This document shows, in pieces, positions 4,086-29,621 of a DNA stretch of 35,776 bases. Below the pieces are notes generated by a model. That model saw only the letters and a program-made list of their open reading frames with translations. It made no database searches and was not told the origin of the DNA. The DNA is from Candidatus Woesearchaeota archaeon. Its GTDB lineage: Archaea > Nanobdellota > Nanobdellia > Woesearchaeales > GW2011-AR9. The first letter of the stretch is position 1. The number at the start of each line of letters is the position of its first letter. The stretch lies in assembly GCA_018303265.1 (NCBI GenBank), contig JAGVYN010000013.1:1-35776 (forward strand), given 5' to 3'. Position numbers and translations under genes: made by a program.

Positions 4086-5234
4086 CTACGAATTGAGGAC
4101 AAATTGGCCGATGGATGATTCCTTTCCCTTCTTTATTGCTGTCGCGGAGAAAGCATAATCACCCCCTTCTTCTAAATAAACACTTTCCAGAAGATAAAAT
4201 ATTCGACCATCACAAAGATAGGCTTTTCCCTTTTCTTTCTGTGAACATTGCTCCACAGCCGTACGAATTTCATCCCGCAGGAACGAAACTTTCTCCAAAA
4301 AGCTGCCTGCCGCTTCGAAAATAATAATATCCTCCGCTGAACCGGTGTAGTCCAGCAAACGCAAGTCATTGGTAAAATAAATAGTGTAGCTTTCAGCAGA
4401 CAGGTCATCAGGAAAAGAGATCTCAAAGAGGTTCGTATTGACAACTCCTTTTGCTTCAATATCTTCGATGGGAAACGGTTCCGTGGGAGTGAAGTCAAGA
4501 GTAAATAGGTATAATGCGGGAGAAGACAGTTGGGTTGCAGAACTCACAACGCAAAATGGTATCTGCCGTCCTTCCGAAGGGAATTCTTCCTCATCACAGG
4601 ATGCATATTTCCAACCAGCGTTTCTTGCGCCATCCACGCATTCTTGAAGATTTCTTTTGTTTCGGCACGCTTTAATAAGGCGCTGGGCTTCGGCTGTAAG
4701 TTGATCATACTCAGCAAAAGAATAACCTACGTCAACGCTAAAACCATTTTCAAATGTATACGTGCCGTGGTTCGTTTTTATTGTTTCTGCGCTTCCCTTG
4801 CCGAAAAAGAAGGTGCTGCTGTAGCCGATGTCAGTGAACGTCTTGCCTGCAAGGCGTAAAGCAAGTTTTTCCTGGGCTTGGGTAATGACTGCATTCTTTA
4901 CGTCCGGCAAACACCACTGTTCTTCTTTGTTCCAGAAATTTCGGCCCTTGCTCCTTCCGCACCCTGATGATGTTTCGGGAGGAAAACCGCCATTCGCAGC
5001 CAATTCCACGGCAATTTCCTGACCAATATTTTTGGCTATGATGTCGTTTTTCAACAATACTTTCTGCGCTTCAAAATAACCTTCCTTGAGAAAGGTAACC
5101 ACCCATTCCCCCTTCACGCCCGGAGTTACGCTGCTTTTGATGCTTAACCCTAAAAAGACAATAAGTCCTGCCATGATGAGGAGAACACCCCAATGCAAAA
5201 TTCCCCCGTGCCGATTCATCTTTTGCTTCTTCAT
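4086..5234 (-). CDS. Membrane-anchored extracytoplasmic protein, unknown function
   Basis: Single N-terminal TM (ILHWGVLLIMAGLIVFLGLSI) then a large polar domain; last gene of the surface cluster. Confidence 0.75.
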   Translation of the reverse strand: MKKQKMNRHGGILHWGVLLIMAGLIVFLGLSIKSSVTPGVKGEWVVTFLKEGYFEAQKVLLKNDIIAKNIGQEIAVELAANGGFPPETSSGCGRSKGRNFWNKEEQWCLPDVKNAVITQAQEKLALRLAGKTFTDIGYSSTFFFGKGSAETIKTNHGTYTFENGFSVDVGYSFAEYDQLTAEAQRLIKACRNKRNLQECVDGARNAGWKYASCDEEEFPSEGRQIPFCVVSSATQLSSPALYLFTLDFTPTEPFPIEDIEAKGVVNTNLFEISFPDDLSAESYTIYFTNDLRLLDYTGSAEDIIIFEAAGSFLEKVSFLRDEIRTAVEQCSQKEKGKAYLCDGRIFYLLESVYLEEGGDYAFSATAIKKGKESSIGQFVLNS

Positions 5235-5240
5235 TTTGGA

Positions 5241-5666
5241 CTACCGCAATACTTTTTCCACACACCCTTTCTGTTCTTCCAACCAGACACACCTGTTACC
5301 GGCGATTTTCACTGTATCAGTGAGGCAGTCATTGCTGTCAATGTAATCATGACAAGAAGTGATAACCTTTCCTCCCAATACTTTGCTGTTCTTAATTTTC
5401 TCATTCAAGTCGACTCCTTCCAGGTTCTCTCCTGCCTGCATCTCCATGCGAAGATTGAGCAAGGCTGATTCTATTTGCTTAAAACTTTCAAAATTTTCAG
5501 TGGCCCCTTTTAAAGACCCTTTTGACGCTATGAATAAGAGGATGCCAACAAAGAAGATAAATACAATCGATAAGAGAAGAATCAAAAAGAGATCCTGTTC
5601 ATTGATGCTGGCAGCCTGCGCCTTCTTATTGAAATGAAGCGGTTTCAGGCTTTGTCCTATTTTCAT
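5241..5666 (-). CDS. Small pilin-like membrane-anchored protein with Cys/Trp C-terminus
   Basis: FNKKAQAASINEQDLFLILLLSIVFIFFVGILLFI; C-terminal CHDYIDSNDCLTDTVKIAGNRCVWLEEQKGC; stop overlaps the upstream gene end. Confidence 0.75.
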   Translation of the reverse strand: MKIGQSLKPLHFNKKAQAASINEQDLFLILLLSIVFIFFVGILLFIASKGSLKGATENFESFKQIESALLNLRMEMQAGENLEGVDLNEKIKNSKVLGGKVITSCHDYIDSNDCLTDTVKIAGNRCVWLEEQKGCVEKVLR

Positions 5667-6139
5667 CTGCTCACCTTTTGAACATAGATCACGAGAAGAT
5701 CTTTTTCTACCATACCTTCTCTCTTAACAAGCACTTCTTTGAAAATGGCAAAATCATCTTTGTAAGCATACTTATCGGTAATCGCTTCCTGGCCGCTTTT
5801 TTCCAGTTTCAATCTGAAATTCAACGATTGTATCCCTTGAAGCGCCTCACTCTTGTAGCACGTGCTAAATCCCTCGTTGGTAAACTTGTCAAGGTCAATA
5901 ACACCGGGAACGACCTTTCCCGTAGTTTCATCTTGAAAAGCAAAACATTCAGGGATGGTGGTAAAACGCAAGGAGATGAGTTCTGCTTCCAATCGGGGAG
6001 GAACTTCAATGACGGTATTGATGAACGCCTGAATTGTAAAGCCCAGAATAAACAGCAATACGGTAAAAATCCCTGTAACCACGGTCCAAATGATGATTTC
6101 TGACGTTGCCGTTTGCCCCTTACGATTCATTCTCTGCAC
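5663..6139 (-). CDS. Small pilin-like membrane-anchored protein
   Basis: MNRKGQTATSEIIIWTVVTGIFTVLLFILGFTIQAF then ectodomain; overlaps neighbours at both ends. Confidence 0.8.
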   Translation of the reverse strand: MQRMNRKGQTATSEIIIWTVVTGIFTVLLFILGFTIQAFINTVIEVPPRLEAELISLRFTTIPECFAFQDETTGKVVPGVIDLDKFTNEGFSTCYKSEALQGIQSLNFRLKLEKSGQEAITDKYAYKDDFAIFKEVLVKREGMVEKDLLVIYVQKVSR

Positions 6140-6530
6140 ATCCTCGTAAAATTACTCTCTTTTTTTTCTTTTCTAAACACACGGCTGATTCTTTCTCCGC
6201 GACACCTTCCCCCGTATATCCCTCAGGTAAAAAAAAGGAACGGCGCAGCCATTCCTGTTCCGGCTCTCCTGGCTTAAATAGAATAACACTTGTTGAATCA
6301 AGAACCAAAGAATATTCCGATAAATTACGCGGATACGTGACAACCGCATCACCAGGCAAGGCAGCCAACGTATTGACCATCATCGAAACGTCATCAATGG
6401 ATGTTTGCTTGAAAATAGTATCTTTCTTCGCAAAAGCCATCCCTTTACTGATGGCCAGAAACCCCACCAACAGAACAAACAGTACTTTGATGACAAAAAC
6501 AGGGCTGATGAAAAATCCTTTTCGGTTCAT
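6120..6530 (-). CDS. Small membrane-anchored protein of the surface cluster
   Basis: MNRKGFFISPVFVIKVLFVLLVGFLAI then SIDDVSMMVNTLAALPGDAVVTYPRNLSEYSLVLDS. Confidence 0.78.
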   Translation of the reverse strand: MNRKGFFISPVFVIKVLFVLLVGFLAISKGMAFAKKDTIFKQTSIDDVSMMVNTLAALPGDAVVTYPRNLSEYSLVLDSTSVILFKPGEPEQEWLRRSFFLPEGYTGEGVAEKESAVCLEKKKKRVILRGCAENES

Positions 6531-7183
6531 TGTTGTGGTTTTGGTGATTTAACTGGATGTAATATTGGTTTCTCAGGAATGGTGCAGGGTGGATTTTGAC
6601 AGACGTAAATAACCTTCCCTTTCTTGATCATCTGTACTTCAAAGCGTTTTGTTCTCGTTTCATAGTTTAACCACGTATTAAAATCTATACCATAAATATA
6701 ATAGTTGGGGGAAATTTCAATACATCTCATTTTCGTGGGAGTGACTGTCTTGATCTCTCTCTCTTCACCGCAGAATGTTCCTTCTGTATCTGTTTCTTCA
6801 AGAGTATATTCTTGAACCAAGCAGATACAATCATTACCCCCGCATTTGTCTTGCGGGCCGAGCCAATGTTCTTCAACATCATCAGTAGTACAAAAAATTG
6901 CCTCATTTATATACGAGCTCCAGAAATTTAACACTCGTGTGCCAGGATCAAGAATCAATAAAGATGTTTTTGGCTCTCCTTCCCTTCCTGTTTCCCCTAA
7001 CGTCTGGATATCACTGACAAACTTGTCGAAACTATCTTGGCCTTTTGAGAGTAAACCGACATACTTGACAGAGCAGGAAATAAAGGTAACGAGAATGATA
7101 ATAGCCAAGGCTAAACCAACCAATTCCTGAGCTGATAGAATGAACGCTCTTTTTGTTTTTTTGATTTTTTTTATTGGTTTCAT
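6527..7183 (-). CDS. Small membrane-anchored protein of the surface cluster
   Basis: KKTKRAFILSAQELVGLALAIIILVTFISC plus Cys-containing ectodomain; ATGA-type 4-nt overlap with the next gene. Confidence 0.75.
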   Translation of the reverse strand: MKPIKKIKKTKRAFILSAQELVGLALAIIILVTFISCSVKYVGLLSKGQDSFDKFVSDIQTLGETGREGEPKTSLLILDPGTRVLNFWSSYINEAIFCTTDDVEEHWLGPQDKCGGNDCICLVQEYTLEETDTEGTFCGEEREIKTVTPTKMRCIEISPNYYIYGIDFNTWLNYETRTKRFEVQMIKKGKVIYVCQNPPCTIPEKPILHPVKSPKPQQ

Positions 7184-7259
7184 GTTCCATTGTTTTTATT
7201 ATGTATTTTCATTTTGTCTGAGCCTCTGGGAATTAAACATGCAATACAGAAAATCATTT

Positions 7260-8741
7260 CTAGGACCATTCCCTATTTTTACAGACATATCGTTTATTGT
7301 CAATAACGAGCGGCGCAAGATCATTGGCAACATCACAGCGATGCCAGAAATTCTCTTTGCAAATTAACGAGCCTGATGTTTTTGCTTTCCATTTGTAATC
7401 TTCGTTAGTAAAAACTTCCAGCGCGTCTGCATCTGAATCAGCAAATGTAGATGTAGGAGTTAATTGTTTTTCTGTCCTATAATCAATGACTTCTCCTTGC
7501 TTAAACGCTCCAGCCCCAATATCACTGCGCCCTCCTCCTGTTCCTTCATGTTGTGCAACAAAAATCCAACATTGGCCTTCGGCAGCTACGGTCTGTGGCA
7601 AACTACCACTTACTCCATAATATTTATACTTTTTAGAACGATCCTGCACACATTCTTCAAAACTCCCTTTACCACTTTTCGCGAAAATTTCACATTCCCA
7701 ATCAATAGATCCCCCATCCGTTCCGTCATCATAGACCGCTTCAATTTGAAATTTTTGGAATGATTCGAATGTTCCTTGATTCACCACATCAAGCAGGATA
7801 AAATACTCATTATTATCTTCCTGCGGTTCTGCAAGTTTCTCGGTGGAATCAACATGAATTTTAAGATAGCATTCGCTGTGGCCAGGGTTATCACAAAGAT
7901 CTGCTTCACTGCCCAACTGCAGATATACTTTAGGCGTTATTTCTTCATCGATGCCCAATCCCGTTGTGTATTCAATATTAATTTTAAACTTCGAAAGATC
8001 AATGAAAGCAGAAGGATCTTTCCATATGTTCTCTAAATCTGAACTGGAAACGTCGGAGGGGTCGATTTCATACAACTTCTTTTTAACACAATTTTTTTGA
8101 AGGATATCGCAGACAGAGACTGTTGTGGTAAATGAATGTGAGATGGCCTTTGGCCCTTTATTTTTAATGGTGGGAGCCACTTCAATCCATTGAAATACCT
8201 TGCCGTTAAAATCAAAAAAATATTTTTCTAACCCTTTTGATGCTCCTTCGGCTTGAAGATTGGCGTCAAGAACAGCGAGATCGCTTTCGACTTCAATTCC
8301 CTCTGGTTTAGCTTGCACGGGCGCGAGGGTTTCTTTTGCTTCCTGGCATTTTGTTTTATATTTCACATCGCAATCTTCCTTCTTCTTGGCATCGCATTTC
8401 TCAACAAACGTTCCCGGATTTTTCTCGGAAGGATATTGCAAACACGTCTTGCGGTCATTTTCCGCTTCATTGGGATCGGTAAGTGTTTTGGGACAGCCTA
8501 AGAATGCCGTGGAGGTATGTCCTTCCCCCTTGGTTGAGATGCATGGGCACTTATCCAATTTATTAAAAACGCCGTCAGAATCGCAATCTTCACTGTATGC
8601 TTTTGCTTCCGCACCGATACCTTCTATCCCTAACTTAATTTTTGAAAGAGCGGGACCGCCATATGCTAGTAAAAGAAGAACGCCGAGGATAAGGGAGATA
8701 ATTATTGAAATCATCTTGCCACTGACCCCTTTTTTGTTCAT
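7260..8741 (-). CDS. Membrane-anchored extracytoplasmic protein with TSP3-like Asp/Cys segment
   Basis: MNKKGVSGKMISIIISLILGVLLLLAYGGPAL; EDCDSDGVFNKLDKCPC; 493 aa. Confidence 0.8.
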   Translation of the reverse strand: MNKKGVSGKMISIIISLILGVLLLLAYGGPALSKIKLGIEGIGAEAKAYSEDCDSDGVFNKLDKCPCISTKGEGHTSTAFLGCPKTLTDPNEAENDRKTCLQYPSEKNPGTFVEKCDAKKKEDCDVKYKTKCQEAKETLAPVQAKPEGIEVESDLAVLDANLQAEGASKGLEKYFFDFNGKVFQWIEVAPTIKNKGPKAISHSFTTTVSVCDILQKNCVKKKLYEIDPSDVSSSDLENIWKDPSAFIDLSKFKINIEYTTGLGIDEEITPKVYLQLGSEADLCDNPGHSECYLKIHVDSTEKLAEPQEDNNEYFILLDVVNQGTFESFQKFQIEAVYDDGTDGGSIDWECEIFAKSGKGSFEECVQDRSKKYKYYGVSGSLPQTVAAEGQCWIFVAQHEGTGGGRSDIGAGAFKQGEVIDYRTEKQLTPTSTFADSDADALEVFTNEDYKWKAKTSGSLICKENFWHRCDVANDLAPLVIDNKRYVCKNREWS

Positions 8742-8830
8742 CGTAATAACACCTATCTTTTTTTCTCCGTTTTCTTGTTATCCAGACTTATTATTTCTTG
8801 TACCTATAAACTTTCTTGTATGTATAAACC

Positions 8831-9634
8831 TTACGATTCGAGGCCTTGCGTAAAACAACCGCCGGCTTCAGCAGAGGCTAAGTTGTCAATTCCGATGGTG
8901 CTCACGGGACGTTCTTTATCATTGTAAAAATCGGTTTTGCTGAAAGCCGTATTTACTCCCCATATAATTCCCACAGGCGGGAGCAGCACTCTCACTGCCG
9001 TCTTCCCTGCCGTCACCCATGTCGAATCCTCTTTCTGTCTGGACAAATAAGTTACGGCATAAATATGTCCTGGCTCAAGAGTGTCTAAGATGGCAAGGTA
9101 TCCCTGTCCGCCATAACCTTGGATATAATCGAGATATTTCATCCCTTTTATCTTATGATGATCCTTTTCAACCATGTAATCAAACATTTCTTTGGCAGGA
9201 ATCTCTCCTTCTTCGATCGCCCGCGGTAAGGTTACAGTATAGCAAAGGAAACATTTGTTTGGACCAAGACCAAATAAAGTAGAAACCCTTTCTGGAGGAA
9301 GTACATCATCGTGCCGGCCTTCATTAAACATTGCCCAGCAGTTGGCCATCAAATGTGCAAGCTGGCCTTTAATCTCTTCACGGCTCCCACCGATTTCCTC
9401 ATCCTGCGTCTGGCAGAGGAGCGGGCCCCAGTTTAAATCCGTAACCCCTATATCTATAGCCGTAGATGTGCGCGCAATAACACTGGCGCGGCAGATACTT
9501 TCCACAGATTTATCTTCCGCCTCGGCAAAAAAAACATATAAGAACCCTCCGACGGCTAAAAAGCTCATAACCACACCTATCAGTAAGACGAGTTGGCTGA
9601 CAATCCCTTTTTTATCTTTCTTTCGGAGGAACAT
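8831..9634 (-). CDS. Membrane-anchored extracytoplasmic protein, pilin-like N-terminus
   Basis: FLRKKDKKGIVSQLVLLIGVVMSFLAVGGFLYVFF. Confidence 0.75.
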   Translation of the reverse strand: MFLRKKDKKGIVSQLVLLIGVVMSFLAVGGFLYVFFAEAEDKSVESICRASVIARTSTAIDIGVTDLNWGPLLCQTQDEEIGGSREEIKGQLAHLMANCWAMFNEGRHDDVLPPERVSTLFGLGPNKCFLCYTVTLPRAIEEGEIPAKEMFDYMVEKDHHKIKGMKYLDYIQGYGGQGYLAILDTLEPGHIYAVTYLSRQKEDSTWVTAGKTAVRVLLPPVGIIWGVNTAFSKTDFYNDKERPVSTIGIDNLASAEAGGCFTQGLES

Positions 9635-9644
9635 GGTTTGTCTC

Positions 9645-10445
9645 TTAGGAACACCGTTGCAGTTTTCCTTCCGCTACTTGTCGGGGAATGGATGTTTCCC
9701 CTTGCGGATCTTCTCCTAAATAATCATCGTCAAGCCCATCAGCATCACTCCCACCATCGACCGTAGGAAAAAAACAGATGTGCTTGTTATCAGGGGTATA
9801 AAGATAACCGGCATCTTCAAAATCTTTAAAGCCGGTACCAAAATCAATCCTGTTCTCAGACAATCCTCCGTACCCTCCATCGTCATGCCTGATGGTAATC
9901 GAATTCACTGGGTTGTAATGCTCTTCTTCAATTATTTTTATTTTTTCTTCCCAACTTTTTTCATTAAGGAAACTTTGTTCAAAATTGCTCGTAACTTCTG
10001 AACTTCCGGCAATGACGCAGGGAGCCATGTTCTCAACAGAAAAATGAAGATTGGGATCGGTAACAAGCTGTTTTCCCCCTGCGCTGCCATACACGGAAAA
10101 CGACGTTGTGCCGGCATTGCCATCGTACTCCATAATTAATGATGTGCCGCCCTCTTCACCAAGCTCTGAAAAGCCCCCGTACGATGCAAAACAGCGGCCG
10201 TTGCTGGCCAGCATTGTCTTGATCGTCTCTTGCAATTTCAGAATCTCCAGCCGATGTGTTTCTGGAATGGAAGCTGCGCCAGCGGAAACTTCTTCCCCTT
10301 TTTCAGGAAGAAGGGATTTTAATGCCGACGTAAACGATTCTTTGATTTCTTCTGTAAGCCCTGTCTCAGGACCAAAGAGAAAAAATACCAAAACGCCGAT
10401 TAACAGCCCAACCAGAACTATTTCGATCAAGAATTTGATTTCCAT
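9645..10445 (-). CDS. Membrane-anchored extracytoplasmic protein
   Basis: N-terminal TM MEIKFLIEIVLVGLLIGVLVFFLFG plus 230-aa ectodomain, tightly spaced in the cluster. Confidence 0.72.
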   Translation of the reverse strand: MEIKFLIEIVLVGLLIGVLVFFLFGPETGLTEEIKESFTSALKSLLPEKGEEVSAGAASIPETHRLEILKLQETIKTMLASNGRCFASYGGFSELGEEGGTSLIMEYDGNAGTTSFSVYGSAGGKQLVTDPNLHFSVENMAPCVIAGSSEVTSNFEQSFLNEKSWEEKIKIIEEEHYNPVNSITIRHDDGGYGGLSENRIDFGTGFKDFEDAGYLYTPDNKHICFFPTVDGGSDADGLDDDYLGEDPQGETSIPRQVAEGKLQRCS

Positions 10446-10446
10446 A

Positions 10447-10650
10447 TTACAACCCTAAAATATTTTTTCCCAATTCGATCATCTTCTCGCGAAAAAAAAG
10501 AAAAATGAGCGCGGCAATAACCAGCAGAAAAATAGCTGCTAACACTATTTTACCTAGATCTTCCACGACAATAGCTTTTTTCTGCCATGTTTTTTTATTT
10601 TCCCCTATTTTGAGAGCTTTCTTCACCGCCATGCTTTTCATCTCTTTCAT
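10447..10650 (-). CDS. Small single-TM protein (67 aa)
   Basis: VVEDLGKIVLAAIFLLVIAALIFLFFREKMIELGKNILGL; 1 nt from the next gene. Confidence 0.6.
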   Translation of the reverse strand: MKEMKSMAVKKALKIGENKKTWQKKAIVVEDLGKIVLAAIFLLVIAALIFLFFREKMIELGKNILGL

Positions 10651-10852: not shown

Positions 10853-11116
10853 TTATTCTTCGGCAAAACAACAGATTTCTTTAGCTGCTCCTGCGCCTTG
10901 GTTTTCTTCCGCGGGACATTGAAACGTCAGTGATCTTCTGTATCCATCAGGACATTCCGGGTCACATGAGCCCCCTTTACTTTCGCAATCAAACAAGCCA
11001 AGTTCCGCTTTTCCTTTCTGTTCCCTGAACATAATCAATAATAGAATCATGACCAGCAAGGCCATCGCCATGCCAATAATAATCCACCACATGTTCGCAT
11101 CTGCTTTTCTGTTCAT
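10853..11116 (-). CDS. Small Cys-rich membrane-anchored protein, paralog of 11134-11463
   Basis: MNRKADANMWWIIIGMAMALLVMILLLIMFREQKGKAELGLFDCESKGGSCDPECPDG...CPAEE...ICCFAEE. Confidence 0.75.
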   Translation of the reverse strand: MNRKADANMWWIIIGMAMALLVMILLLIMFREQKGKAELGLFDCESKGGSCDPECPDGYRRSLTFQCPAEENQGAGAAKEICCFAEE

Positions 11117-11133: not shown

Positions 11134-11463
11134 TCAGCTGAAACAGTATCTTTTCCCATTAAATATGTCAGTTGAACATTGCTCACCAGCATCACAGGCT
11201 TTGTCAATGTCGTTGCATTCTTTTGGTGAACCAAAACAACACGTCTGCTCTTTTGCACAATCGAATGCCGGTGATGAAAACGTCCTTGCGGGACAGGCAC
11301 TTTTTTCACCAACACAAACGCCGCCCTTGCTTTCGCATCCTGAAACGCCCACACCAAACTTCCCGGTTTTGCCGGTAAATAATACCATCAGCACGATCAA
11401 GACAATTAAAGCGAGGACTGCACCGATAATGATCCACCACATGTTAGCGTCAGCTTTTTTCAT
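11134..11463 (-). CDS. Small Cys-rich membrane-anchored protein, paralog of 10853-11116
   Basis: MKKADANMWWIIIGAVLALIVLIVLMVLFTGKTGKFGVGVSGCESKGGVCVGEKSACPARTFSSPAFDCAKEQTCCFGSPKECNDIDKACDAGEQCS. Start set at MKKADAN. Confidence 0.75.
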   Translation of the reverse strand: MKKADANMWWIIIGAVLALIVLIVLMVLFTGKTGKFGVGVSGCESKGGVCVGEKSACPARTFSSPAFDCAKEQTCCFGSPKECNDIDKACDAGEQCSTDIFNGKRYCFS

Positions 11464-11504
11464 GATTTTATAGACCACCGGATCCCTTTAAACACAGAGT
11501 GCAT

Positions 11505-11924
11505 TTAACTCCAGTCGCATAATCCATCAGCTTCACAGGAAGTTTTATCTACAAAGTTATTGCATCTTCCTATTTCATCCTGCAATTTATTCCTTGCTTC
11601 TGCTTTGGCCGTATTTACTTCCTGGATGTTTTCTAACTTAGAGGCTGCACTGTACTCAGAACGAAAGGTACTTTCAACACTTGCACCTGGATGGCATGGC
11701 CCATACGCAACTTTTATTGTTGAAAGTTCTGTTTTTGCTTCGCCTGTACCTTCTTGAAAGATAGCAATTTTTCCTGTAAAAATCAATGCTAAAACAACTA
11801 AGATAATCAATGCCAAAACAGCAACAATAATAACATTTAAAGAAAAACCTTGTCCTTTATTGTTGTGGTTAAAAAAAAGACCTAAAAATCGATTAGAGAT
11901 AGCTTTACTATTCTTTTTGTTCAT
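11505..11924 (-). CDS. Small pilin-like membrane-anchored protein with Cys/Trp C-terminus
   Basis: NNKGQGFSLNVIIVAVLALIILVVLALIFTGKIAIFQEG; ends CNNFVDKTSCEADGLCDWS. GAGGTG precedes ATG. Confidence 0.75.
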   Translation of the reverse strand: MNKKNSKAISNRFLGLFFNHNNKGQGFSLNVIIVAVLALIILVVLALIFTGKIAIFQEGTGEAKTELSTIKVAYGPCHPGASVESTFRSEYSAASKLENIQEVNTAKAEARNKLQDEIGRCNNFVDKTSCEADGLCDWS

Positions 11925-12024: not shown

Positions 12025-12555
12025 TCAGGAACAAACATAAAGCCAGCTATACACCACGCCACTGTCTGTTTGCAGAGGGAAACGGTCAGAACTGGATCTC
12101 TTGCCCGTACAGCCGCCATTCTTTTTTATCGGGGGAATAATTTCAATCGGTTTTTCTCCCAGAAGAGGAACCAGCTCGGAATGGAATTCATACTTCTGGT
12201 TCCAGTTTCCCAGTGTTCTTTCTAACATTTCAGGGAGAAACTCGCTCAGAAAATCACAGCTGTGCCTGCCCCGGCAGGTATATAATGACGTCGTATCTTT
12301 GTTTATCGCGCAATCTTCAAGGAGATCTTTCTCAATTTCTGGAAAGGCTCCCCTGGCAACCTCTTCCACGCAGTTTGGCTCATCAACCGTCATTTTCATC
12401 AGCGCCCCCATCGTGCTGTAGGCAAGCCTTTCGGGAGTGAACGTCCTTCCTGTTGGTTCTGCGCGCAAGGCAAAGGTGACCATAAAGATCATCCCCAGAG
12501 TAAGTAAAATCACAATCACGACTAATCCCATGATCTCCATCTGCGCGCGTTTCAT
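12025..12555 (-). CDS. Pilin-like membrane-anchored protein
   Basis: MKRAQMEIMGLVVIVILLTLGMIFMVTFAL; ATGA overlap with the upstream gene. Confidence 0.8.
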   Translation of the reverse strand: MKRAQMEIMGLVVIVILLTLGMIFMVTFALRAEPTGRTFTPERLAYSTMGALMKMTVDEPNCVEEVARGAFPEIEKDLLEDCAINKDTTSLYTCRGRHSCDFLSEFLPEMLERTLGNWNQKYEFHSELVPLLGEKPIEIIPPIKKNGGCTGKRSSSDRFPLQTDSGVVYSWLYVCS

Positions 12556-20900: not shown

Positions 20901-21269
20901 ACAGCATCCTGCTGTACACCATAACTCGTATTCTTCATCAGAAACAGCCTGCCCTCCCACTTCCTTGGACGTACAGAATCCGGCGGGATGAGTTAGGCAA
21001 TCAATGTTGCAGGTTACGGGAACGCACTCGCTTAACGCGGAACAGCTTTGGGAAATAACATACGTTTTTTCGTCACATTCAGGATCATCCGCGCACTGGG
21101 CTTGAGCATCTTCATCATATTCTACACAATACAAATCATCGAGAAAGGTGCCAGCAATGTCGGTTCGGGGATAAAGTATACAAGAAGCTTGGGAAACCAC
21201 GAAAGAAGACAGCAATAGTAAAAATACACTTAAAACTACTACAATCATCCCTCTTTTTTTTACTACCAT
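14946..21269 (-). CDS. Giant (2107 aa) Cys-rich surface protein: signal peptide, three carboxypeptidase-regulatory-like repeats, FN3-like region, TSP3-like Ca-binding stretch, C-terminal TM and charged cytoplasmic tail
   Basis: Signal MIVVVLSVFLLLLSSFVVSQA; repeats such as VNTEEGQPIAGASVMLKSAGLEKKTDSLGVVTFTGLSPKTEAITASAAGY; DADGDHISDSCDECPSTDAG...DNDGDGLPNVWEGDF...DTDGNGKSDAEEDYDGDGYTNLREYSSGLNPC; TM LLAWVFLLLGLLLLLGGSGYLIYYYLY; basic tail. Confidence 0.9.
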   Translation of the reverse strand: MVVKKRGMIVVVLSVFLLLLSSFVVSQASCILYPRTDIAGTFLDDLYCVEYDEDAQAQCADDPECDEKTYVISQSCSALSECVPVTCNIDCLTHPAGFCTSKEVGGQAVSDEEYELWCTAGCCKIPTTPTSYCSFLSNKYLCDQKADQSGIANYDFYNPTGLTKEQCASQYCKVEIQTATLTVSVNTEEGQPIAGASVMLKSAGLEKKTDSLGVVTFTGLSPKTEAITASAAGYVSEMLTLSLNPGQSAEQKFTLVVKGTATISGVIKDVKSNLLAGSTLSWTGPESGFVTSTDGSYSIEVSPGEYQITASKIGYSADKKTISVAAKDALTLDLVLTATIPQGVQGTAYVDVNGNNQPDDGETTYGVKLYVDGVFKGYSQFPDGDFNLEIATTGEHTIAATYQDYVSEKKTITVLADQTVSQNVLLIRLVGECTEPGTEKDVGSLVVSPVPGKEQLKVEWVKPCPEVIGYTLQRVKGATVEKSFEISPFTNSFIDTTVSWGEEYTYQIAALYDKGRKSNPVSSNTINVGNQACEGKYHDNSGWETFCLVGTEEERKQVWTCNDQNLLTAWLCEGEYSYCAKISPRQASCKNAAVCSLGGDPFGLYYVEEMCYGTNDPSGGKAANYCYYDSTTSIINQCKSCTQIESCFDYQSKDACEINSCLTKNCQWVDSAEESLLVDYSLINLNLPGLVTQETGAGYCVEENYEKDDKCSLCGPDSPPSTLFENFYCTAEVCSSLGRCFSAPGLTSCQNCGETPTAERNCYTYETELECTGGQSVQKGADNQFTFSSDQCGWQRCLWQGSSNGAGASCVKDGNGDALDDCAGFIGSELAACRNDVSPPRTELSSQPTLSLAFSNLTFTGDDSFHEHAGQRNPLGSLWFCLTKEEANAPSICSQFKEVLYPGKLQKESVTVNIVGSLEEKTKAAGDTYRLQFYSTDKFLNQEALQEAFVLIDNVPPEFNIQETIDTVGEITTLTAYLEGTTELMSCTFTLTPVLPSGSSQIRSISREEKEKQAIFENLDGIVYTLEAACTDDQGNKNTKKKSYTFDVEKRIDIVYPPLQGAVAEQEVVFKIHTLAPASCALYDAATKQKLRDFTITDDVGKEHETEPLPLPEEREYVAEQEVLCKELLTGETYNPDYFHFFVDRTAPKTQVLLREEQREEQPTSLEWEEFFVNTVAVDFECAEETGFGCEETYYCLEENSAECEFFIPQRYTQYVETVLLTNSTRLCYYSTDSAGNLPLQVVCGKVLIDGYGLVMEKPPQHYYQNTLWGVSDKPVFDWQFFTKIPTKECRFDFVPGFNYDATPPHRTRTANEEKKYLFQNFPESVFTSFKEDEIKTVYVQCKNNEDELGPEQKIILEYDPTSPKVTDAHAEPDEVFEGVTTTLFVTTDDKTICRYSDTGHTTYETMSFSFPGADEKILNKEHKDTYTLNYVGDTGIKDYLLNVQCKNGAGVLSEVEEIQVHVDYTKAGFIRSLNPSGFIGTKNVTLSVQTSKNAVCEYKFSDKSFSNNKSFSNKSSTPSYLPFATGAGTTVHTAPLPVLEEKEHVIPVKCQVGDQPEPLSEQIVFTVDLTPPVITAVDDGTFTCGNNNLKIIANSQEKSIAGYYYELYDIGSTLSSAAPAFTISPFTTSPTTSPFTSSLSTSLNISGKNSSSPIFVGDEAGEILVRNGTIGKNSSFTIFVGDLDAGRTYKVKVLAQDEAGNVGVFKDSDGFTIISKNDSRCAVDEVPVVTFTTDAETCTDVSLQMSCDSSVGCNEWKYGTHSSAELCLPAQEYNGQKISFTNDGAVCYYVVDNAGKNWSGVKETPFNDADGDHISDSCDECPSTDAGKIANEIGCADGQVPANQKFLDNDGDGLPNVWEGDFNALNCQLDSQNKDTDGNGKSDAEEDYDGDGYTNLREYSSGLNPCLADAPTLEVPLVTEEQALTLTMLLAWVFLLLGLLLLLGGSGYLIYYYLYSPQAKVPARPVVRGLPGVQVPGQPSLVKKTWRDQFTQLQKMREEKRKEKKRQELFAAFGKQSAQIPHVAEILQKKAPHLPRLDELAHRYQQDKAKISPGLRPEEKDIFSKLENIARQTEQKKIEEVVSKDEAKDIFTKLKEISKKRKEGAS
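16221..16329. repeat. Intragenic partial tandem duplication with 72-bp period
   Basis: atcgccaacaaaaatag...gaagagttcttgcca occurs at 16221-16257 and 16293-16329 (protein GKNSS[SF]xIFVGD, 24-aa period). Confidence 0.75.
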
Positions 21270-21382: not shown

Positions 21383-23917
21383 TTATCGGCATAAGCCATC
21401 AGGTTGGCATGTTCCTTCAAAAATGCCATCAAAATTATTATCGCATACGTTTCCTGCCGTACGATCTTGTTCTGTACATTCACAATGAACTTGAAGTGCT
21501 TCATCATTCGTGAAAAAATTTGTTTCCGCTCGAAGATTCATGTTATACAAAGTATCTTTGGCGACAGGGGCTCCAATCTCGGCCACGACTGGACCAGCAC
21601 ACACGCTAGAGCAACCCATTTTTCCATGACACCAGAGGTCATTCTGGCCATCATTATTAGAATCAGAAAAACCCCAAGCGAGTTGATCGTAACATTCTTC
21701 AACCACTTTATCACAGCTAAGGGATGTATCTTTGTTTCCGCAGCGCAATTCGTCATTCCATAACTGGGATTTTCGAAGAGTAGGATTCCCACAGATGTTC
21801 CCCCTTTGCCCGTCACAGTAATCTAATTTTTGTTCAAGAAGATACCCCTCATTGCCGGAGAGTGCGGTATATTCAGGAATGTTCCCTTCACAATCAGGAA
21901 GAGGACTCTCGAAACAGGATGTTCCTGCAGGGGCAACATCCCATTTGCCAGGAATTTCAGGAGTTCCCACACAACAAGTATGAGTCGCTTGAAATGGATT
22001 GGCAGTTTTTTCTATCTCTTTAAAATGAGTATTCCCTTCTTCATCAAATTCATACGTATACTCGTGATATGGATACGCCCACGGATTTGTGGGGTTTTTA
22101 TGTGGAACACAAGCGGTGACAGAAACAATGGCCTCTGCGCTTTGTGATTGGGCAAACGCACCACAATAATTTAGGTTATAATCAAGAACAAGTTTCCCTA
22201 AAACAAGCTCCCTGAATGGATGAGTGGTGAAATATGCCCGATCAAGAAAGTTTTTGAGATCCTCACCTGTTTCCGGCTGACCACCGCCTATTTTTTGTGG
22301 AATGTTCAGTGTTGTTAACTTCGTGCCAAGTTCGTCAAGGGGTGGTTCTGTCGTGGATGTTTCTATCGGAAAAGTAAACTCCTGGCCAGCAGCGATGTAC
22401 TGTAAAGATATTTCTTCAAGATCCTCAGTAAGGGAACTCTGCGGAAAGGTGACCTCAAGCGTGATGGGATCTTCCCGGGAAACAAAATAGACGCCCGAAT
22501 CAAACAGGTTTACATCTTGATAAATTGATTTTAAATCAAGATTCATGGTGATCGGTCGATCAACTAAAACGCGAACGGTTTGGGTATCTTCAAGATCTTC
22601 ATCCGCTGCTTTAGCGATGATCTTATACCACCCAGGGTTTCCAACTTCACGGGTGAAAAAAACATTGCCAAGAACATTGTCAGGATAAGTGCTGTCTTTA
22701 GTAAAATCCTCAGAGACAAAATCATACTCTACTGCATCTTCATCCGGATCTGAGGCATTTGCTACGATATTAATTTGGCCAAATTTCTCATCACCCGGAA
22801 TAACTAAATAATCATAACTTTTTTCTGGATTCCCGCCAAGAAGACACTGCGAACGGTGCACATAATCTAAAGCCGGAGGACGATTTTGACGCGCAATGCG
22901 AAATGTATACGGCTTATCTTTGACAATGTGAGGGACATCGCTGAAGATGAAGAAATCATCGCCTTGTTCCAAAGGAAGAATCTTTAAATTAAGATTCAGG
23001 TTTTTGTATTTTTCAAATGGCAAACTTCGCTTGCAAAGGTAATAGCCTTCCTGCGGCTCGCATCCTATAAATTGCTGTGTATTTCCATATTCAAAAAAAG
23101 GGCTTCGGAGGATCGCATCCGTATACTGAAAGTCGACAAATTTCTGATCATGCTCTAAAGGGAAGAGGATAGCGCTGTCCAATAATTGTTTAAATTTTGT
23201 GGGATGAAAGAAATCAAATTCGGAGAGTTGAAAAAATTCTTGATCGGCAAGCCGGAATTTCAAAGGATATGACACCTGGACGCTGATTCCTTCATCCAAG
23301 ATCGCCAGCTTCAGATCAATATCGGTTTCTTCAACTTTAGCTGTCGCAGAGATGTTGATGGCGACAAAATCTGTAACACAACTTACAGTTTGCTCGATAA
23401 GATATCGTTGCAAATCACTCTGGATTGAACCAGCGCGCAGCTCCAGTCCGCCAAATCCGACCGTGATATCAGGATATGTATATTGGCAAAATTCAGGAGC
23501 ATTTTCATCAGTAGCGCAGGGATACGCTTCCGGATACTGAAACGGTTCTTCTCCGCGTGTAATCCCATAAGCGATCTTCTCCTCATCCGGCCCGTAGGTG
23601 ATGCCCGTGATCCCCTCAGAGAAAGAAGTTAAGCCGCCTTGATCTTTCCAGATACGTCCTTGCTTTCCCAGCAAAATAAGCCCTTTTTCAATGCCATCAG
23701 CGAGGCAATCTTCAACGAAAATACGAAGAGCTTCTTTCTGGAACACCTTTGACAGAACTTTCTCCTGCTCGGTTTGCAGCTGTCCTTTTCGAAGCTGATT
23801 TGTCAGCATCAGAATAGAGAGAAAAATGAATAAAATGAGGATCCCGACAATTATGAATATAGTTATTTGAGCCCTTTTGGAGGAAACCCTATTTCTATCG
23901 CGCTTCTTTTTCCCCAT
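21383..23917 (-). CDS. Membrane-anchored surface protein (844 aa) with pilin-like N-terminus
   Basis: SSKRAQITIFIIVGILILFIFLSILMLTNQL; Cys-rich C-terminal third; DSNNDGQNDLWC. Confidence 0.88.
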   Translation of the reverse strand: MGKKKRDRNRVSSKRAQITIFIIVGILILFIFLSILMLTNQLRKGQLQTEQEKVLSKVFQKEALRIFVEDCLADGIEKGLILLGKQGRIWKDQGGLTSFSEGITGITYGPDEEKIAYGITRGEEPFQYPEAYPCATDENAPEFCQYTYPDITVGFGGLELRAGSIQSDLQRYLIEQTVSCVTDFVAINISATAKVEETDIDLKLAILDEGISVQVSYPLKFRLADQEFFQLSEFDFFHPTKFKQLLDSAILFPLEHDQKFVDFQYTDAILRSPFFEYGNTQQFIGCEPQEGYYLCKRSLPFEKYKNLNLNLKILPLEQGDDFFIFSDVPHIVKDKPYTFRIARQNRPPALDYVHRSQCLLGGNPEKSYDYLVIPGDEKFGQINIVANASDPDEDAVEYDFVSEDFTKDSTYPDNVLGNVFFTREVGNPGWYKIIAKAADEDLEDTQTVRVLVDRPITMNLDLKSIYQDVNLFDSGVYFVSREDPITLEVTFPQSSLTEDLEEISLQYIAAGQEFTFPIETSTTEPPLDELGTKLTTLNIPQKIGGGQPETGEDLKNFLDRAYFTTHPFRELVLGKLVLDYNLNYCGAFAQSQSAEAIVSVTACVPHKNPTNPWAYPYHEYTYEFDEEGNTHFKEIEKTANPFQATHTCCVGTPEIPGKWDVAPAGTSCFESPLPDCEGNIPEYTALSGNEGYLLEQKLDYCDGQRGNICGNPTLRKSQLWNDELRCGNKDTSLSCDKVVEECYDQLAWGFSDSNNDGQNDLWCHGKMGCSSVCAGPVVAEIGAPVAKDTLYNMNLRAETNFFTNDEALQVHCECTEQDRTAGNVCDNNFDGIFEGTCQPDGLCR

Positions 23918-23939: not shown

Positions 23940-23949
23940 TTATAAAATT
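23940..23949 (-). promoter_or_regulatory. TATA box of the 844-aa gene
   Basis: AATTTTATAA on the minus strand, about 23-32 nt upstream of the ATG. Confidence 0.5.
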
Positions 23950-23969
23950 TGTTGATAATCTTCCCTAAT

Positions 23970-26900
23970 CTAACTTACCCTTACCTTTCCCGTCAGCTGC
24001 GGCCACAGGAGATCGAGATTAGAAATGGCTTCCACGTGCTGGATTGCCTCTTGTTGTATGCAGCTAAGTTGCTGCTGGCCGGCAGCTTCTTCTAACAGTT
24101 CGAGATCTTCAGGAAGATTAACATGAGTTACATATTCACAGACGGGCGTTTCAAAATTTTCATATTCCGCGATGAGGGTTTGTTTTTGAGGGGAAAATAC
24201 CTCGCGCACGGCACGAATGAATTTTTCGTCTTTTTTCAACAAGTAGACATCACGGAAATTTTGTACTTCTGCTACAAAGATTGATTCTTGTGAAAGTTCA
24301 CTTTCGACACCAAATAAATTCTTGATTTTTTCCCATACTTTTTCTACCAAACCAGGTTCCAGCGAAAAGCCTTCTTTTCCGTAGATAACAGCATTTAATT
24401 TTTGAGAGTACCACAAGTCGCCTTTGACGGCCGTTCCTGTTACATCGCATTTTACAAACTCATTTTCTCCGGATGGAGGGCATAACACTTTAATCTTGCC
24501 TTGAGGAATGCCTAAAGCCAGGAAAAAAGAATCCGGGTCGGTAATGTCCCTGTTTAACGTCGTGGCAAAGGACGTCTTTCCTTTGTGCTGCAAGACACAG
24601 AAATTGTTGACGCAGGTGTTTTCTTTTTCTGGAACGAGCCTCGCCCCTTCTTTGTCGAGAAGGGCATCAAAACAGACCGTCGTTACTTCCTGGCCGCCTG
24701 GGCTTCCTAACGTTTCGGCTAATCCGACTTTTCCCGCAGCGGCAACTTGCTTGATCCCTTCAAGATAATTTTCTTTTCCTGCTGTTTCCAGCTCAGCCTC
24801 ACGAAGGGAGGTGCAATACAGAACAAAATCATCATCACCGGCAACATTCACAAGCTCTTCAGCGACAAATTTTGTCCGTGACGTCCAGTTCCCTGCCTGA
24901 CAATAATTATCAAAAACATACTCGCCGGAATTAATACAAGAAGGATATTCTCCTTGATAAAAATCAGCCGTCGCCGCGTCAACGCTGGCGCTTTCCGTGC
25001 TGAGGACGAAACATTGATCTTCGCTATTGCAGAAACCGCTTTTTTCACGATTCCAGTCCTGTTTCAAAGGCTGGTATTTCCAGATGCCTTGGACACAGCG
25101 ATAATTGCGGTCATCGGGGAGATGTTCCACCAGCGCGGAGGCGCTCATGTCTTCAACACAAGCGTAGCCGTTCCAACAGGAATTTTGAGAACAGCAAGCT
25201 GCCCCGGAACGGGCATCAAAACCTGTGAGAGAAGGCTGGGACTTGTAATGATAAGGGGATTTTCCTTGGTTATCAACATATTGAAGCAGGGGTTGGAAGA
25301 TAGTGCAGGAATTAGATGTCCCTTTAAATTCAACGACAAGATATGAAGCATCGGCTGTACTAAATTCTGGCGGCGAAGCAATATTCCTGTTGCCATCTTT
25401 GTCAACAAGTGTTATTTGAATGTCAGAGCAGCTTCCGTTGTGGGAAAAGGATACATTCGTATTTTTTCCGATGGCAATTCGTTCAGACCGCAGTATCTCG
25501 CCATTATTAAGAGTTACTTTATTTTGAACAATTTTTTCTTTCTCATTCTGGACGGCAATTCCATCCGCTGCAAGAATATCCCAATGGGGAAGGATCTTCC
25601 CATCCAATCTAAATTCAGCATTGGGGAGAAAGTTTTGCCCGGGAAAGGCAAACGTGGAATAATTGCGCTCGCCGGCAGCAACGGATTGGTCTTTCAATGG
25701 GAATGGCAAGTTGGAAAAAAATGTGGTGAGATCGGACGTATCAATTTCTCCAACAGCATAACCAACTTTGGTTATCTCTTCAGCACTCCACGAATTGATG
25801 GTTGTAAAACGTTCTTTGTTTATTTCATGATCAACACTGTAGGAACAAAATGCTCCCCCCTTCACAGAACAATACGGAAGGTTGTTTTCTGGGTTTATTT
25901 TATTAATCCCTTCCAGAAAACTTGCGGCTTGGCAGCCATAAAAACCTTGATCGACATTCCCCTCAGCATCTTCTTCATTGACAAAAATGACTTGCTGGGC
26001 AGCTTTTTTCACTTTCACGTTCGCATCTTTATCGTACGTATTTGATGAGCCTACAGGGATCTCTCCTTCATTCGTAACAAAATAGAGTTCATACAAATCA
26101 GGGTTGGGATTGGTTACAGTGTAGAACGGTTCTCCAGGAAGTGGATACACACATTCTACATTCCCGCTGCAGGAATATTCCGGTTCCCAGGTTTTGCCTT
26201 GACTATTTACACTAAACTTAACATTCATTGTCGTCTCGCCAGGCGCGATTGGCTGTGAGTTCCAGCAGCCGTAATTATCCCTGGAATCATCTGCATAATA
26301 TTCTTTATCATCATTGCCGCAGCAGCGGCGGGCGGGAGCAACTACTTCTTCATCTCCCAGCCAGGCTATTCCTTGATATGCTGGATCGTCCTTAAAAAAA
26401 GGATCGTATAGAGCATTGCATAATTTTTCGCCGCTGATTTTATCTCCTTTCTGCCAATAATCCAAATCCGTCAGCCAAGAGCTTTTGCCCTCATCACTGC
26501 TATATTCGCCGGAACATATTTGCGGCTTTTCTCCCGAAGTAAGATAAGCATTCCTCACTTCAATCTCATTCTTTTCAGGAGAAGCGTCAATCCTCATGAA
26601 TTTAACATTGACCATCTCTGAAATTGGCACTTTAACATGAATCCAGCGATTCTCTTCGAGGACAGGATTGTTAGCAGCATAGCCTAGAACGCTGTCGTCA
26701 AAATAAACAACATTTTTGCCGTCATCCTGTTTTGGACCAAAGATGCTTAGCCGCACATTGGTGGGAACATCTTCTTCGAGATGAGTAAAACGAACATAAA
26801 ATTCAAGATAGGTCTCACCAATGAAGTCTGTTGGAGAATCTTCATAATAATCGGAATATACTTTGTCTAAATCAATCAGAACTTTGTTTGCGGGCATTGC

Positions 26901-28469
26901 ACTTATAATGGGAAGAGAGAACAAACCATCCCCTGGTTTTCGTTCTTTTATCCCATTGAATGAAAGCTGGATTGGTTCATTAGGATCGCGGCAATCTGCC
27001 CAGCTCCAACGGTTTCCTTCTTTGTAGCAATAAAATCTGTTAGCATTCGTGATATCATCTGGAAAAATTAAACCCGTGGAAATTTCTTTCGTTCCTTCTT
27101 CATTCTTACATTCCACCCACTGCTGGCCGTTGGCAACAATGTCATATGCTTCTTGCTCTGGTTTTTTTATGGTGAAGATATGGAACTTGGCATCTCCGTC
27201 ACTTTTTACCCAGCACCATTCACCAGCGCAGCGGTCGGGAGAACCGTCAGGCTTTTCACTGGGCCAATCTGGAATGTCTCCAACTCGACCAACCAACTCC
27301 GGCTTTTCATTATTCAAACAAATAAAATTACCTGGAAGATTGCCTGCTGTGCCGGAAGCGATGTTTCCGAAGTCAGTCAGTGGATCAGTTTCATTATCAT
27401 CACCGCAGCAATTGTTGTTGCCTGTGTTGGAGTTTATCCACGAAAATGATTTATCAAATAAATTTTGATCAGCATTAACACAGGTTTCCTCATTTTCATC
27501 CGGATCATCAATGCTGATGCCATCGCAATTGTTATCAATCCCATCACCGGCGAATTCTTTCACTCTGGGGTTGATGCAAATAGCACATTGCGAATGTTCA
27601 GGATAGTCGCAATCTTCAGGCCCTTCTACATCTTTACAAAAAGAAGGATCAACGGAGGGATCATCTTTGCAATCAACAGCTTCCAGAAAGAAATCACGAT
27701 CACGATCAACACCCGCTGGTTTCCAGAGAGGGATGTCAAATTCATCAAGAGTGCAGTTGTACATCTGGCCATTGGCCCAGGTGATGGTGTTTAATGAGCC
27801 GCTTTTTCCATCCTCGCCATCCACACCTGCTTCACATTTATGCCAGAATTTGTCATAGGCGCAGATGTGAGGGTAATCTGTCTTAAACAAAGAGTAAGTG
27901 AAAGATAAAAATGCGTCACCTCCAGCTTCATCACATTGGAAAAGAATGTTAGAAATCTCGCTAGTATGATCTAAGAGTTTTCGTTCAGAATTAAAAATAA
28001 CCCCCTCTTTTACTATGCCAGCTGCACCATCACTAGTATCGCTGGTATCCCGCTCTTCAATCAAAACCCAACATCCACTTCCTTCAGTTATCTGGTCCTG
28101 GGGCGGTTTAACTAATTTCGAACCAAAATTACATTCTTTTATATTTGATTTCCCTTCATTTAATGTAATAAGTCCTCGATGCCCTTTGCCTTCGTCTATA
28201 ACATCCATAGAAGTATAATCATAAAGTCCGGATGTGGCTAAATCAGTGTCTTTAAAACAATCCAACACATCAGAACCATAATCACATCCGCCATGCGCAG
28301 CAGGAGCTTCCACACTTTTTCCTAAAGCGGCGAATTTGTCTGTATTAGCAACCAAGCCTTGTGAAATACTTGGTTCTGGTTCTCCGCCTTCTTCTTGAGA
28401 AAAAGAAATTAATGCGAAGAGTGAAAAACAGACTACAATGAGTAAAAACATCCCTCTTTTTGTGTTCAT
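23970..28469 (-). CDS. Giant (1499 aa) secreted Cys-rich protein with MopE-like metal-binding motif
   Basis: Signal peptide MNTKRGMFLLIVVCFSLFALISFSQ; DRDRDFFLEAVDCKDDP...EFAGDGIDNNCDGISIDDPDENEETC; CCGDD/CCGND motifs; no obvious C-terminal TM. Confidence 0.88.
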   Translation of the reverse strand: MNTKRGMFLLIVVCFSLFALISFSQEEGGEPEPSISQGLVANTDKFAALGKSVEAPAAHGGCDYGSDVLDCFKDTDLATSGLYDYTSMDVIDEGKGHRGLITLNEGKSNIKECNFGSKLVKPPQDQITEGSGCWVLIEERDTSDTSDGAAGIVKEGVIFNSERKLLDHTSEISNILFQCDEAGGDAFLSFTYSLFKTDYPHICAYDKFWHKCEAGVDGEDGKSGSLNTITWANGQMYNCTLDEFDIPLWKPAGVDRDRDFFLEAVDCKDDPSVDPSFCKDVEGPEDCDYPEHSQCAICINPRVKEFAGDGIDNNCDGISIDDPDENEETCVNADQNLFDKSFSWINSNTGNNNCCGDDNETDPLTDFGNIASGTAGNLPGNFICLNNEKPELVGRVGDIPDWPSEKPDGSPDRCAGEWCWVKSDGDAKFHIFTIKKPEQEAYDIVANGQQWVECKNEEGTKEISTGLIFPDDITNANRFYCYKEGNRWSWADCRDPNEPIQLSFNGIKERKPGDGLFSLPIISAMPANKVLIDLDKVYSDYYEDSPTDFIGETYLEFYVRFTHLEEDVPTNVRLSIFGPKQDDGKNVVYFDDSVLGYAANNPVLEENRWIHVKVPISEMVNVKFMRIDASPEKNEIEVRNAYLTSGEKPQICSGEYSSDEGKSSWLTDLDYWQKGDKISGEKLCNALYDPFFKDDPAYQGIAWLGDEEVVAPARRCCGNDDKEYYADDSRDNYGCWNSQPIAPGETTMNVKFSVNSQGKTWEPEYSCSGNVECVYPLPGEPFYTVTNPNPDLYELYFVTNEGEIPVGSSNTYDKDANVKVKKAAQQVIFVNEEDAEGNVDQGFYGCQAASFLEGINKINPENNLPYCSVKGGAFCSYSVDHEINKERFTTINSWSAEEITKVGYAVGEIDTSDLTTFFSNLPFPLKDQSVAAGERNYSTFAFPGQNFLPNAEFRLDGKILPHWDILAADGIAVQNEKEKIVQNKVTLNNGEILRSERIAIGKNTNVSFSHNGSCSDIQITLVDKDGNRNIASPPEFSTADASYLVVEFKGTSNSCTIFQPLLQYVDNQGKSPYHYKSQPSLTGFDARSGAACCSQNSCWNGYACVEDMSASALVEHLPDDRNYRCVQGIWKYQPLKQDWNREKSGFCNSEDQCFVLSTESASVDAATADFYQGEYPSCINSGEYVFDNYCQAGNWTSRTKFVAEELVNVAGDDDFVLYCTSLREAELETAGKENYLEGIKQVAAAGKVGLAETLGSPGGQEVTTVCFDALLDKEGARLVPEKENTCVNNFCVLQHKGKTSFATTLNRDITDPDSFFLALGIPQGKIKVLCPPSGENEFVKCDVTGTAVKGDLWYSQKLNAVIYGKEGFSLEPGLVEKVWEKIKNLFGVESELSQESIFVAEVQNFRDVYLLKKDEKFIRAVREVFSPQKQTLIAEYENFETPVCEYVTHVNLPEDLELLEEAAGQQQLSCIQQEAIQHVEAISNLDLLWPQLTGKVRVS

Positions 28470-28498
28470 GGTATTATAGAATAAAACAATCCTTTTTT

Positions 28499-28508
28499 AT
28501 TTATAAAT
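28499..28508 (-). promoter_or_regulatory. TATA box of the 1499-aa gene
   Basis: ATTTATAAAT about 30-39 nt upstream of the ATG at 28469. Confidence 0.5.
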
Positions 28509-28538
28509 ATTCCGAACACTAAAGAGAAAAAAGTAGTT

Positions 28539-29621
28539 TTACTCCCACTGCAAGAGAAGGGGATAGACTTTATTGGTGCAATGAACCTTGTCAGTGGAGA
28601 AAGTTTTCACACACAGACCTTCTTCAGTGGATAGAAACGCAATCTTTGAATCATCCGGAGAAGGAGCAAAAGGAATGGATACTCCTTGCGCGATGAGAGA
28701 ATAATAGCCGTTGAGAGAAATGCTGTTCAATGTTTTATTTGAACCATCAAAATAGAGAGCATTTCCTTTTGGGGACCAGTGGACGAAATTTATGGGCTTC
28801 GCAACTTGATTTTCAGTGACAGCACTTGTTTCTTTAGTGTCCATATCATAGACTACGGCTTCTCTTTTCCCACCGCAGTCTTGAATGAAGGCGACAAGAT
28901 CCTCGTGCACCGCAGGCTGATATTCATCACAACCAGGATCAAAACTCGTTGGAAGAAGGCGCTGTAATTGTGAACCGTCTTGCTGTATTGAAAGAATCTT
29001 GAAATTACCATTATCTTCAGAAGTGCAATAGGATTGGCCACCGCAGGTTCCTGAAAAAAGAATCGTGGAAGAACCGTGCCATGTAGGAATGAATTGAATA
29101 CCATAAGGCTCCTCGGAGGCTCCCTTTGGCAAAAGTAATTGAGGCGTGGAACCATAAACATAGAGTTTGTCATTAAATGTTACAACAGCAATTTTTCCAC
29201 TGCCAGCAACGGAGAACCACCCTATTTGGGAGATATCTTTTTGATTAAGAATTATTTCATCAAGCCCCGAATTAAGAGAAAACTTGTTAATAGTATTAGT
29301 GTTATCGCCAAAGTCATGTTTAAGGTAATGCCAGTTTCCACAACCCAAATCATCTACTACACCATTACACGTATTATCCACACCATCGCATAAGTCAAAC
29401 TCTTCCGGCTGGCATGTTGGCTCAGGGGTTGAGGGTTGGGAAGAGGATGATTCCTTTTGTGGAGGATTTTGACATTCTCCTTTAACGCAAATACGGTCTC
29501 CTTTACAATCATAATCTGCGGTGCAGTAAGGGGAAGATGTGCTTCCAGAATCACACGAAGGAAAACTTACGGCAAGAGCTGCACCCAATGCTAATTTCCT
29601 AACCAGATCAGTAAGTGTCAT
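28539..29621 (-). CDS. Secreted/lipoprotein-like protein with MopE-like motif and TolB/WD40-like beta-propeller
   Basis: Hydrophobic leader ALGAALAVSFPSC; CDGVDNTCNGVVDDLGC; propeller-like WSPKGNALYFDGS and PSPDDSKIAFLSTEEG. Confidence 0.75.
   Translation of the reverse strand: MTLTDLVRKLALGAALAVSFPSCDSGSTSSPYCTADYDCKGDRICVKGECQNPPQKESSSSQPSTPEPTCQPEEFDLCDGVDNTCNGVVDDLGCGNWHYLKHDFGDNTNTINKFSLNSGLDEIILNQKDISQIGWFSVAGSGKIAVVTFNDKLYVYGSTPQLLLPKGASEEPYGIQFIPTWHGSSTILFSGTCGGQSYCTSEDNGNFKILSIQQDGSQLQRLLPTSFDPGCDEYQPAVHEDLVAFIQDCGGKREAVVYDMDTKETSAVTENQVAKPINFVHWSPKGNALYFDGSNKTLNSISLNGYYSLIAQGVSIPFAPSPDDSKIAFLSTEEGLCVKTFSTDKVHCTNKVYPLLLQWE

Follow-up and report, generated by a model that had tools for sequence, protein, structure and literature searches.

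The 35,776-nucleotide (nt) stretch of DNA analysed here, hereafter called the window, is contig JAGVYN010000013.1 (assembly GCA_018303265.1) of a Candidatus Woesearchaeota archaeon (DPANN, order Woesearchaeales) whose genome (G000; other genomes are likewise labelled by G-numbers) comprises 866 kb and is 83% complete. A block of genes on the minus strand, at window positions 4086-29621, was proposed in a first-pass annotation to encode a surface structure composed of pilin-like subunits and giant proteins. Open reading frames were found at these coordinates and on this strand, and 20 of them (g01 to g20, Table 1) were counted where approximately 19 consecutive genes had been reported. Intergenic spacing within the block ranges from -20 to +202 nt, and the overlaps between neighbours that had also been reported amount to four gene pairs.

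Pilin-like N-termini and large cysteine-rich proteins

Seven proteins of the block (g03, g06, g07, g08, g09, g18 and g19) carry a strict [KR]-[GAS]-Q motif before a hydrophobic helix, and eight others (g05, g10, g11, g14-g17 and g20) begin with a looser basic-[GA] sequence. These counts agree with the earlier claim that at least a dozen genes encode a basic motif followed by one hydrophobic helix. The elements that characterize a class III prepilin N-terminus (a basic stretch, [GAS], Q or E, and a hydrophobic helix) are thus present. The motif is absent or different in g01, which encodes a lipoprotein, and in g12 and g13, while g02 and g04 carry KRG followed by ordinary-looking signal peptides.

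In homologous regions of other genomes, counted with the window excluded, a [KR][GAS][QE] motif at the helix is found in 105 of 227 cluster genes versus 5 of 82 other single-helix genes (Fisher p = 3e-12, a value that is optimistic because homologous genes are not independent). The background in this comparison consists of neighbouring genes only, and several of its five motif-bearing members are g03-type genes. The Q residue following [GAS] is invariant in g06 (10 of 10 sequences) and g08 (19 of 19) and near-invariant in g07, and its retention over such large divergence points to selection rather than chance.

The four larger proteins were described previously as carrying cysteine (Cys)-rich or Ca-binding-like segments. 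Their Cys-rich character is clear from the counts of 53 (g02), 26 (g03), 78 (g04) and 18 (g15) residues, but the Ca-binding-like character is less so, with DxDxDG repeats in g04 seen by eye and a TSP3 match in g15 that is merely sub-threshold in Pfam (E 0.005). CarboxypepD_reg domains were identified in g04 (Pfam E 2.5e-26), along with weak S-layer-like matches. Because g04 combines a signal peptide, these domains and repeats, a C-terminal transmembrane (TM) segment and a charged tail, its sequence layout suggests an anchor or scaffold more than a pilin.

AlphaFold2 models were prepared with the window and related loci as the only input, and therefore derive from very shallow alignments. The model of g05 (3-row alignment; predicted local distance difference test score, pLDDT, of 71) has a 52-residue helix at residues 25-76, just after the predicted cleavage position, and a beta-rich head. 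In the model of the g03 N-domain (5-row alignment; pLDDT 56), a helix spans residues 13-85. The predicted layout of g05 is pilin-like, with the pilin fold unconfirmed by fold search.

Table 1. Features of the gene block and its downstream flank (window coordinates; aa, amino acids)
Feature	Position	Strand	Description
g01	28539..29621	-	360 aa lipoprotein, lipobox ..FPSC; sub-threshold MopE and propeller-like matches; probably accessory
g02	23970..28469	-	1499 aa secreted Cys-rich giant; signal peptide, no C-terminal TM; conserved C-terminal half ~765-1499; candidate tip/adhesin
g03	21383..23917	-	844 aa; SKRAQ and helix; N-terminal ~260-aa domain, class-wide, stand-alone in other orders
g04	14946..21269	-	2107 aa; signal peptide, CarboxypepD_reg-like domains, fn3-like, Cys-rich part, DxDxDG repeats; candidate envelope anchor/scaffold
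g04 C-terminus			TM at ~1922, then ~150-aa charged tail, presumably cytoplasmic
g05	14373..14939	-	188 aa pilin-like core subunit
g06	13154..14329	-	391 aa pilin-like core subunit, KRGQ; Q invariant
g07	12552..13079	-	175 aa pilin-like core subunit, KRAQIHMTE
g08	12025..12555	-	176 aa pilin-like core subunit, KRAQMEIMG; Q/E/G invariant; 4-nt overlap with g07
g09	11505..11924	-	139 aa, NKGQGFSLN; order-level
g10	11134..11478	-	114 aa, KKADANMWW; Cys-rich head; order-level
g11	10853..11116	-	87 aa, RKADANMWW; sequence close to g10
g12	10447..10650	-	67 aa small single-helix protein; varies between genomes
g13	9645..10445	-	266 aa; N-terminal helix without motif
g14	8831..9634	-	267 aa, KKGI and helix
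g15	7260..8741	-	493 aa, NKKGV and helix; Cys-rich; sub-threshold TSP3 and CARDB matches
g16	6527..7183	-	218 aa, KRAF and helix
g17	6120..6530	-	136 aa, NRKGF and helix
g18	5663..6139	-	158 aa, RKGQTATSE
g19	5241..5666	-	141 aa, KKAQAAS
g20	4086..5234	-	382 aa; NRHGG in window, NKKGA in relatives, and helix; final gene of block
Downstream flank	372..3996	-	RPA-like OB protein 3004-3996, YdjM 2472-3050, RadA 372-1355; conserved in the order; not counted with the system

Conservation of the block and its surroundings

The order of g02 through g20 is kept in six other genera of the family (G014, G015, G006, G026, G028 and G010) and in G049 from another family, with detectable orthologues in these genomes sharing roughly 25-60% identity. 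Genes g11, g12 and g19 are barely detectable in other genomes. When gene neighbourhoods of relatives were checked for scattering, the order was found to be kept in most genomes, and split clusters are present in G003 and G016. Families further removed within the order retain g05-g08, g09/g10-like genes, g14, g16-g18 and g20 to differing degrees. In five genomes from other orders of the class only a core was found: g06, g07 and g08, accompanied by large secreted proteins and a g03 N-domain encoded on its own, with g05 also present in three of the five.

This core is widespread. Gene g06 is present in 222 of 282 genomes of the phylum and in all 28 of the family, and g07, mostly as a single copy, in 57 of 61 relatives and in each of the 41 high-quality ones. 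Among the 20 order members lacking a detectable g06, 16 also lack g08, suggesting that the core genes tend to be lost, or to diverge strongly, together. No relative of g06 was found on viral contigs. The block is a real, ancient and functionally coherent gene cluster, and not a chance island.

In four of the five genomes from other orders (G093, G114, G255 and G132), an S-layer gene lies next or nearly next to the core. PF05124 is above the cut-off on three of these S-layer genes, and the fourth reaches 20.5 versus the required 23.9 bits. This adjacency to S_layer_C genes would fit a membrane-bound complex that anchors the envelope or S-layer and forms no filament. Its helices would be permanent anchors, its giants and small heads a disulfide-rich lattice linked to the coat, and the N-terminal sequences merely topogenic. 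The C-terminal TM segment, tail and weak S-layer-like matches of g04 are in keeping with such a complex, as are the many block genes with basic-[GA] but no Q and the failure of Foldseek to return a pilin fold. However, the conserved Q of g06, g07 and g08 argues against it, as does the wide distribution of A24 peptidases and a type IV pilus-type motor (see below), and we consider this explanation unlikely.

In the window, as in most order members examined, the block is followed on the same strand by genes for RPA, in some cases YdjM, and RadA. If this linkage were functional, the block might encode a pseudopilus for transport, particularly for DNA uptake. Yet the ComEC channel (PF03772) is absent from 61 of 61 genomes, the core is not beside RadA in other orders, and RPA and RadA are housekeeping genes. 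A role in DNA uptake is therefore very improbable, and the adjacency probably reflects stability of the chromosomal neighbourhood.

Gene g01 falls within the block as first delimited but, as a variable lipoprotein gene that is not conserved, it was rejected as a core component. Lipoprotein-like genes (..AACGSS, ..VACES, ..INCKDP) recur near the cluster around g03 in G015, G010, G028, G003 and G016, often inserted on the opposite strand, and g01 may belong to the same group.

Candidate assembly machinery encoded outside the window

An assembly ATPase, platform protein and prepilin peptidase had been reported as lacking in the window, and profile searches yielded candidates for all three in other parts of the genomes. 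Of 37 family genomes, 32 encode an A24 prepilin peptidase, and the G000 protein (E 4e-17) retains both catalytic Asp motifs, YTD..REVP and GGGD. Beside the peptidase gene of G000, at L062:2599-3995, are two more pilin-like genes (KGSLNLSIEAIVV and AAIELSVNMLVM), which have counterparts in G006 and G014. Nearly every family genome also carries one T2SSE ATPase of ~765-770 aa that scores above the cut-off and resembles afGspE (2oap, E 3e-25) and FlaI/CpaF. In G000 this ATPase has the Walker A sequence GTRSSGKT, and its gene runs off contig C24.

The platform candidate is a protein of ~730-735 aa with nine TM segments that adjoins the ATPase in G049 and G056. Although it has no Pfam match, alignment to the TadC T2SSF domain with hhalign gave an E-value of 3e-5 and a probability of 73%. 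A home-made profile detects this protein in 59 of 61 relatives and 275 of 282 genomes of the phylum. PF00482, by comparison, is found in only 9 of 37 family genomes and is absent from the other 28, among them the cluster-bearing, nearly complete genomes G006, G014, G015, G026, G010 and G028. The notion that no platform exists, which PF00482 alone would suggest, was rejected given the near-ubiquity of the protein found with the home-made profile. In a minority of the family (G030, G008, G011, G013, G020, G022, G032, G033 and G035), the divergent motor coexists with further T2SSF genes of the canonical type, most of which have a T2SSE partner.

Three proteins with 5-6 TM segments and two coiled-coil-like soluble proteins are encoded at the ATPase locus in all or nearly all of seven genomes (L058:11658-13389, with counterparts L053, L054, L055, L056, L057 and L059). 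Both coiled-coil-like proteins accompany the ATPase in six of the seven, and G000 has one of the two. None of these small proteins has a convincing Pfam family, and they may be unrecognised motor subunits. The platform gene is adjacent to or near the ATPase gene only in G049, G056 and G015.

The divergent motor is assigned to the cluster by elimination, which is not a proof: genomes that carry the cluster and are nearly complete contain no second recognisable platform. Alternatively, the cluster pilins could be served by an unrecognised system, with the near-universal ATPase and platform acting only on the two pilin-like proteins encoded beside the peptidase gene. The adjacency of those genes to the peptidase in G000, G006 and G014 is compatible with this arrangement, as is the persistence of the platform where the cluster has been lost. 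However, most family genomes offer no other recognisable platform to serve the cluster, and the sharing of one motor among several pilin sets has been reported in archaea (PMC4858521). We regard separate systems as improbable.

A proposed type IV filament-family apparatus and its relation to described systems

We judge it probable, though by no means assured, that the structural subunits of a divergent surface apparatus of the type IV filament family in DPANN archaea (Nanoarchaeota in the broad sense) are encoded by the block, and its motor elsewhere in the genome. Judged from sequence, the block is best read as a set of substrates, namely minor pilins, tip or adhesin proteins and anchor proteins. 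Prepilins would be inserted by the Sec pathway and cleaved by the A24 peptidase behind the basic-[GAS] residues. Their helices would then be assembled by the ATPase and platform, giving a short filament or pseudopilus. Proteins g05-g08, with g03, could form a core or tip complex, which g04 would tie to the envelope and S-layer via its C-terminal TM segment and charged tail, and g02 would serve as a tip adhesin. The most plausible targets of such an apparatus are other cells or surfaces.

Several findings weigh against this proposal. Pfam and NCBIfam searches of the cluster genes gave no match to a pilin family and left nearly all of them without a useful domain, and a profile search of the PDB with g07 returned only non-significant pilin matches (E 0.5-0.7). 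Foldseek searches with the g05 and g03 N-domain models, themselves built from shallow alignments, gave no pilin or other convincing match. No platform gene was detected in the 83% complete G000 genome, and motor and cluster are unlinked in the genomes. Furthermore, the platform persists in order members without a detectable g06 and mostly without g08, and must therefore have other clients. The earlier proposal that pseudopilin subunits and giants form a surface structure is partly supported, by the pilin-like N-termini, the deep conservation of the unit and the genome-encoded ATPase, candidate platform and peptidase.

Among the nearest known systems are archaeal type IV pili (Makarova et al. 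2016, PMC4858521), in particular the Pyrobaculum-Thermoproteus loci, in which two large proteins occur together with numerous minor pilins that contain Cys. Like these loci, the block combines many small class III-type subunits, conserved Cys residues and an S-layer association with two large proteins, one having a C-terminal TM segment and the other only a signal peptide. Unlike archaeal type IV pilus loci, it contains neither ATPase nor platform, and none of its subunits is recognisably related in sequence. DUF2341, which occurs in PilY-like large proteins of archaeal type IV pili, was not matched in g02 or g04. The ATPase and peptidase have their best NCBIfam scores with the archaellum proteins FlaI (131 bits) and FlaK (42 bits), but these lie far under the equivalog cut-offs of 550 and 330, respectively, and the locus organisation differs from that of FlaI/FlaJ/FlaK systems.

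The first-pass description of the apparatus as undescribed holds for the pilin/giant operon, for which no description was found in the literature searched, which left out many subscription journals and preprints. It does not hold for the motor or for the idea of diverged pilins in DPANN. Hamm et al. 2024 (PMC11291902) describe two type IV pilus-like loci in cluster-2 DPANN, including Woesearchaeota, and list Locus 2 with CpaF, TadC and coiled-coil proteins (CCPs) but no filament proteins. By description, the motor locus resembles Locus 2 in its ATPase, its two coiled-coil-like soluble proteins and, in some genomes, its platform. It differs in its three conserved 5-6-TM proteins, and the pilin/giant cluster is not described in the text consulted. 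Diverged pilins were proposed by Makarova et al. 2019 (PMC6393860) as the identity of signal-peptide proteins that escape recognition in type IV pilus islands of DPANN; unlike the block, these 'dark matter' islands (Fig. 2A of that paper) contain ATPase/TadC. NEQ255 of N. equitans (cls.004306), encoded near an S-layer-like gene, may be a homologue of the core.

A more far-reaching possibility, which we hold to be doubtful, is that the block represents an ancestral appendage of the class that has been kept vertically. It would consist of a heteromeric pseudopilus of a dozen different single-copy pilins, two giants and an S-layer link, and would act as the cell-contact organelle of these host-dependent archaea. 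The motor that builds it, nearly universal and present once per genome, would have three extra polytopic subunits. It has long been asked how DPANN cells make contact with their hosts and feed on them. The operon offers a concrete, single-copy and order-conserved candidate parts list for the substrates of the type IV-like motor known in these lineages, which makes this question testable in co-cultures.

Elsewhere in the window, at positions 1940-2410 on the plus strand, two small adjacent genes resemble a RelBE-type toxin-antitoxin pair.
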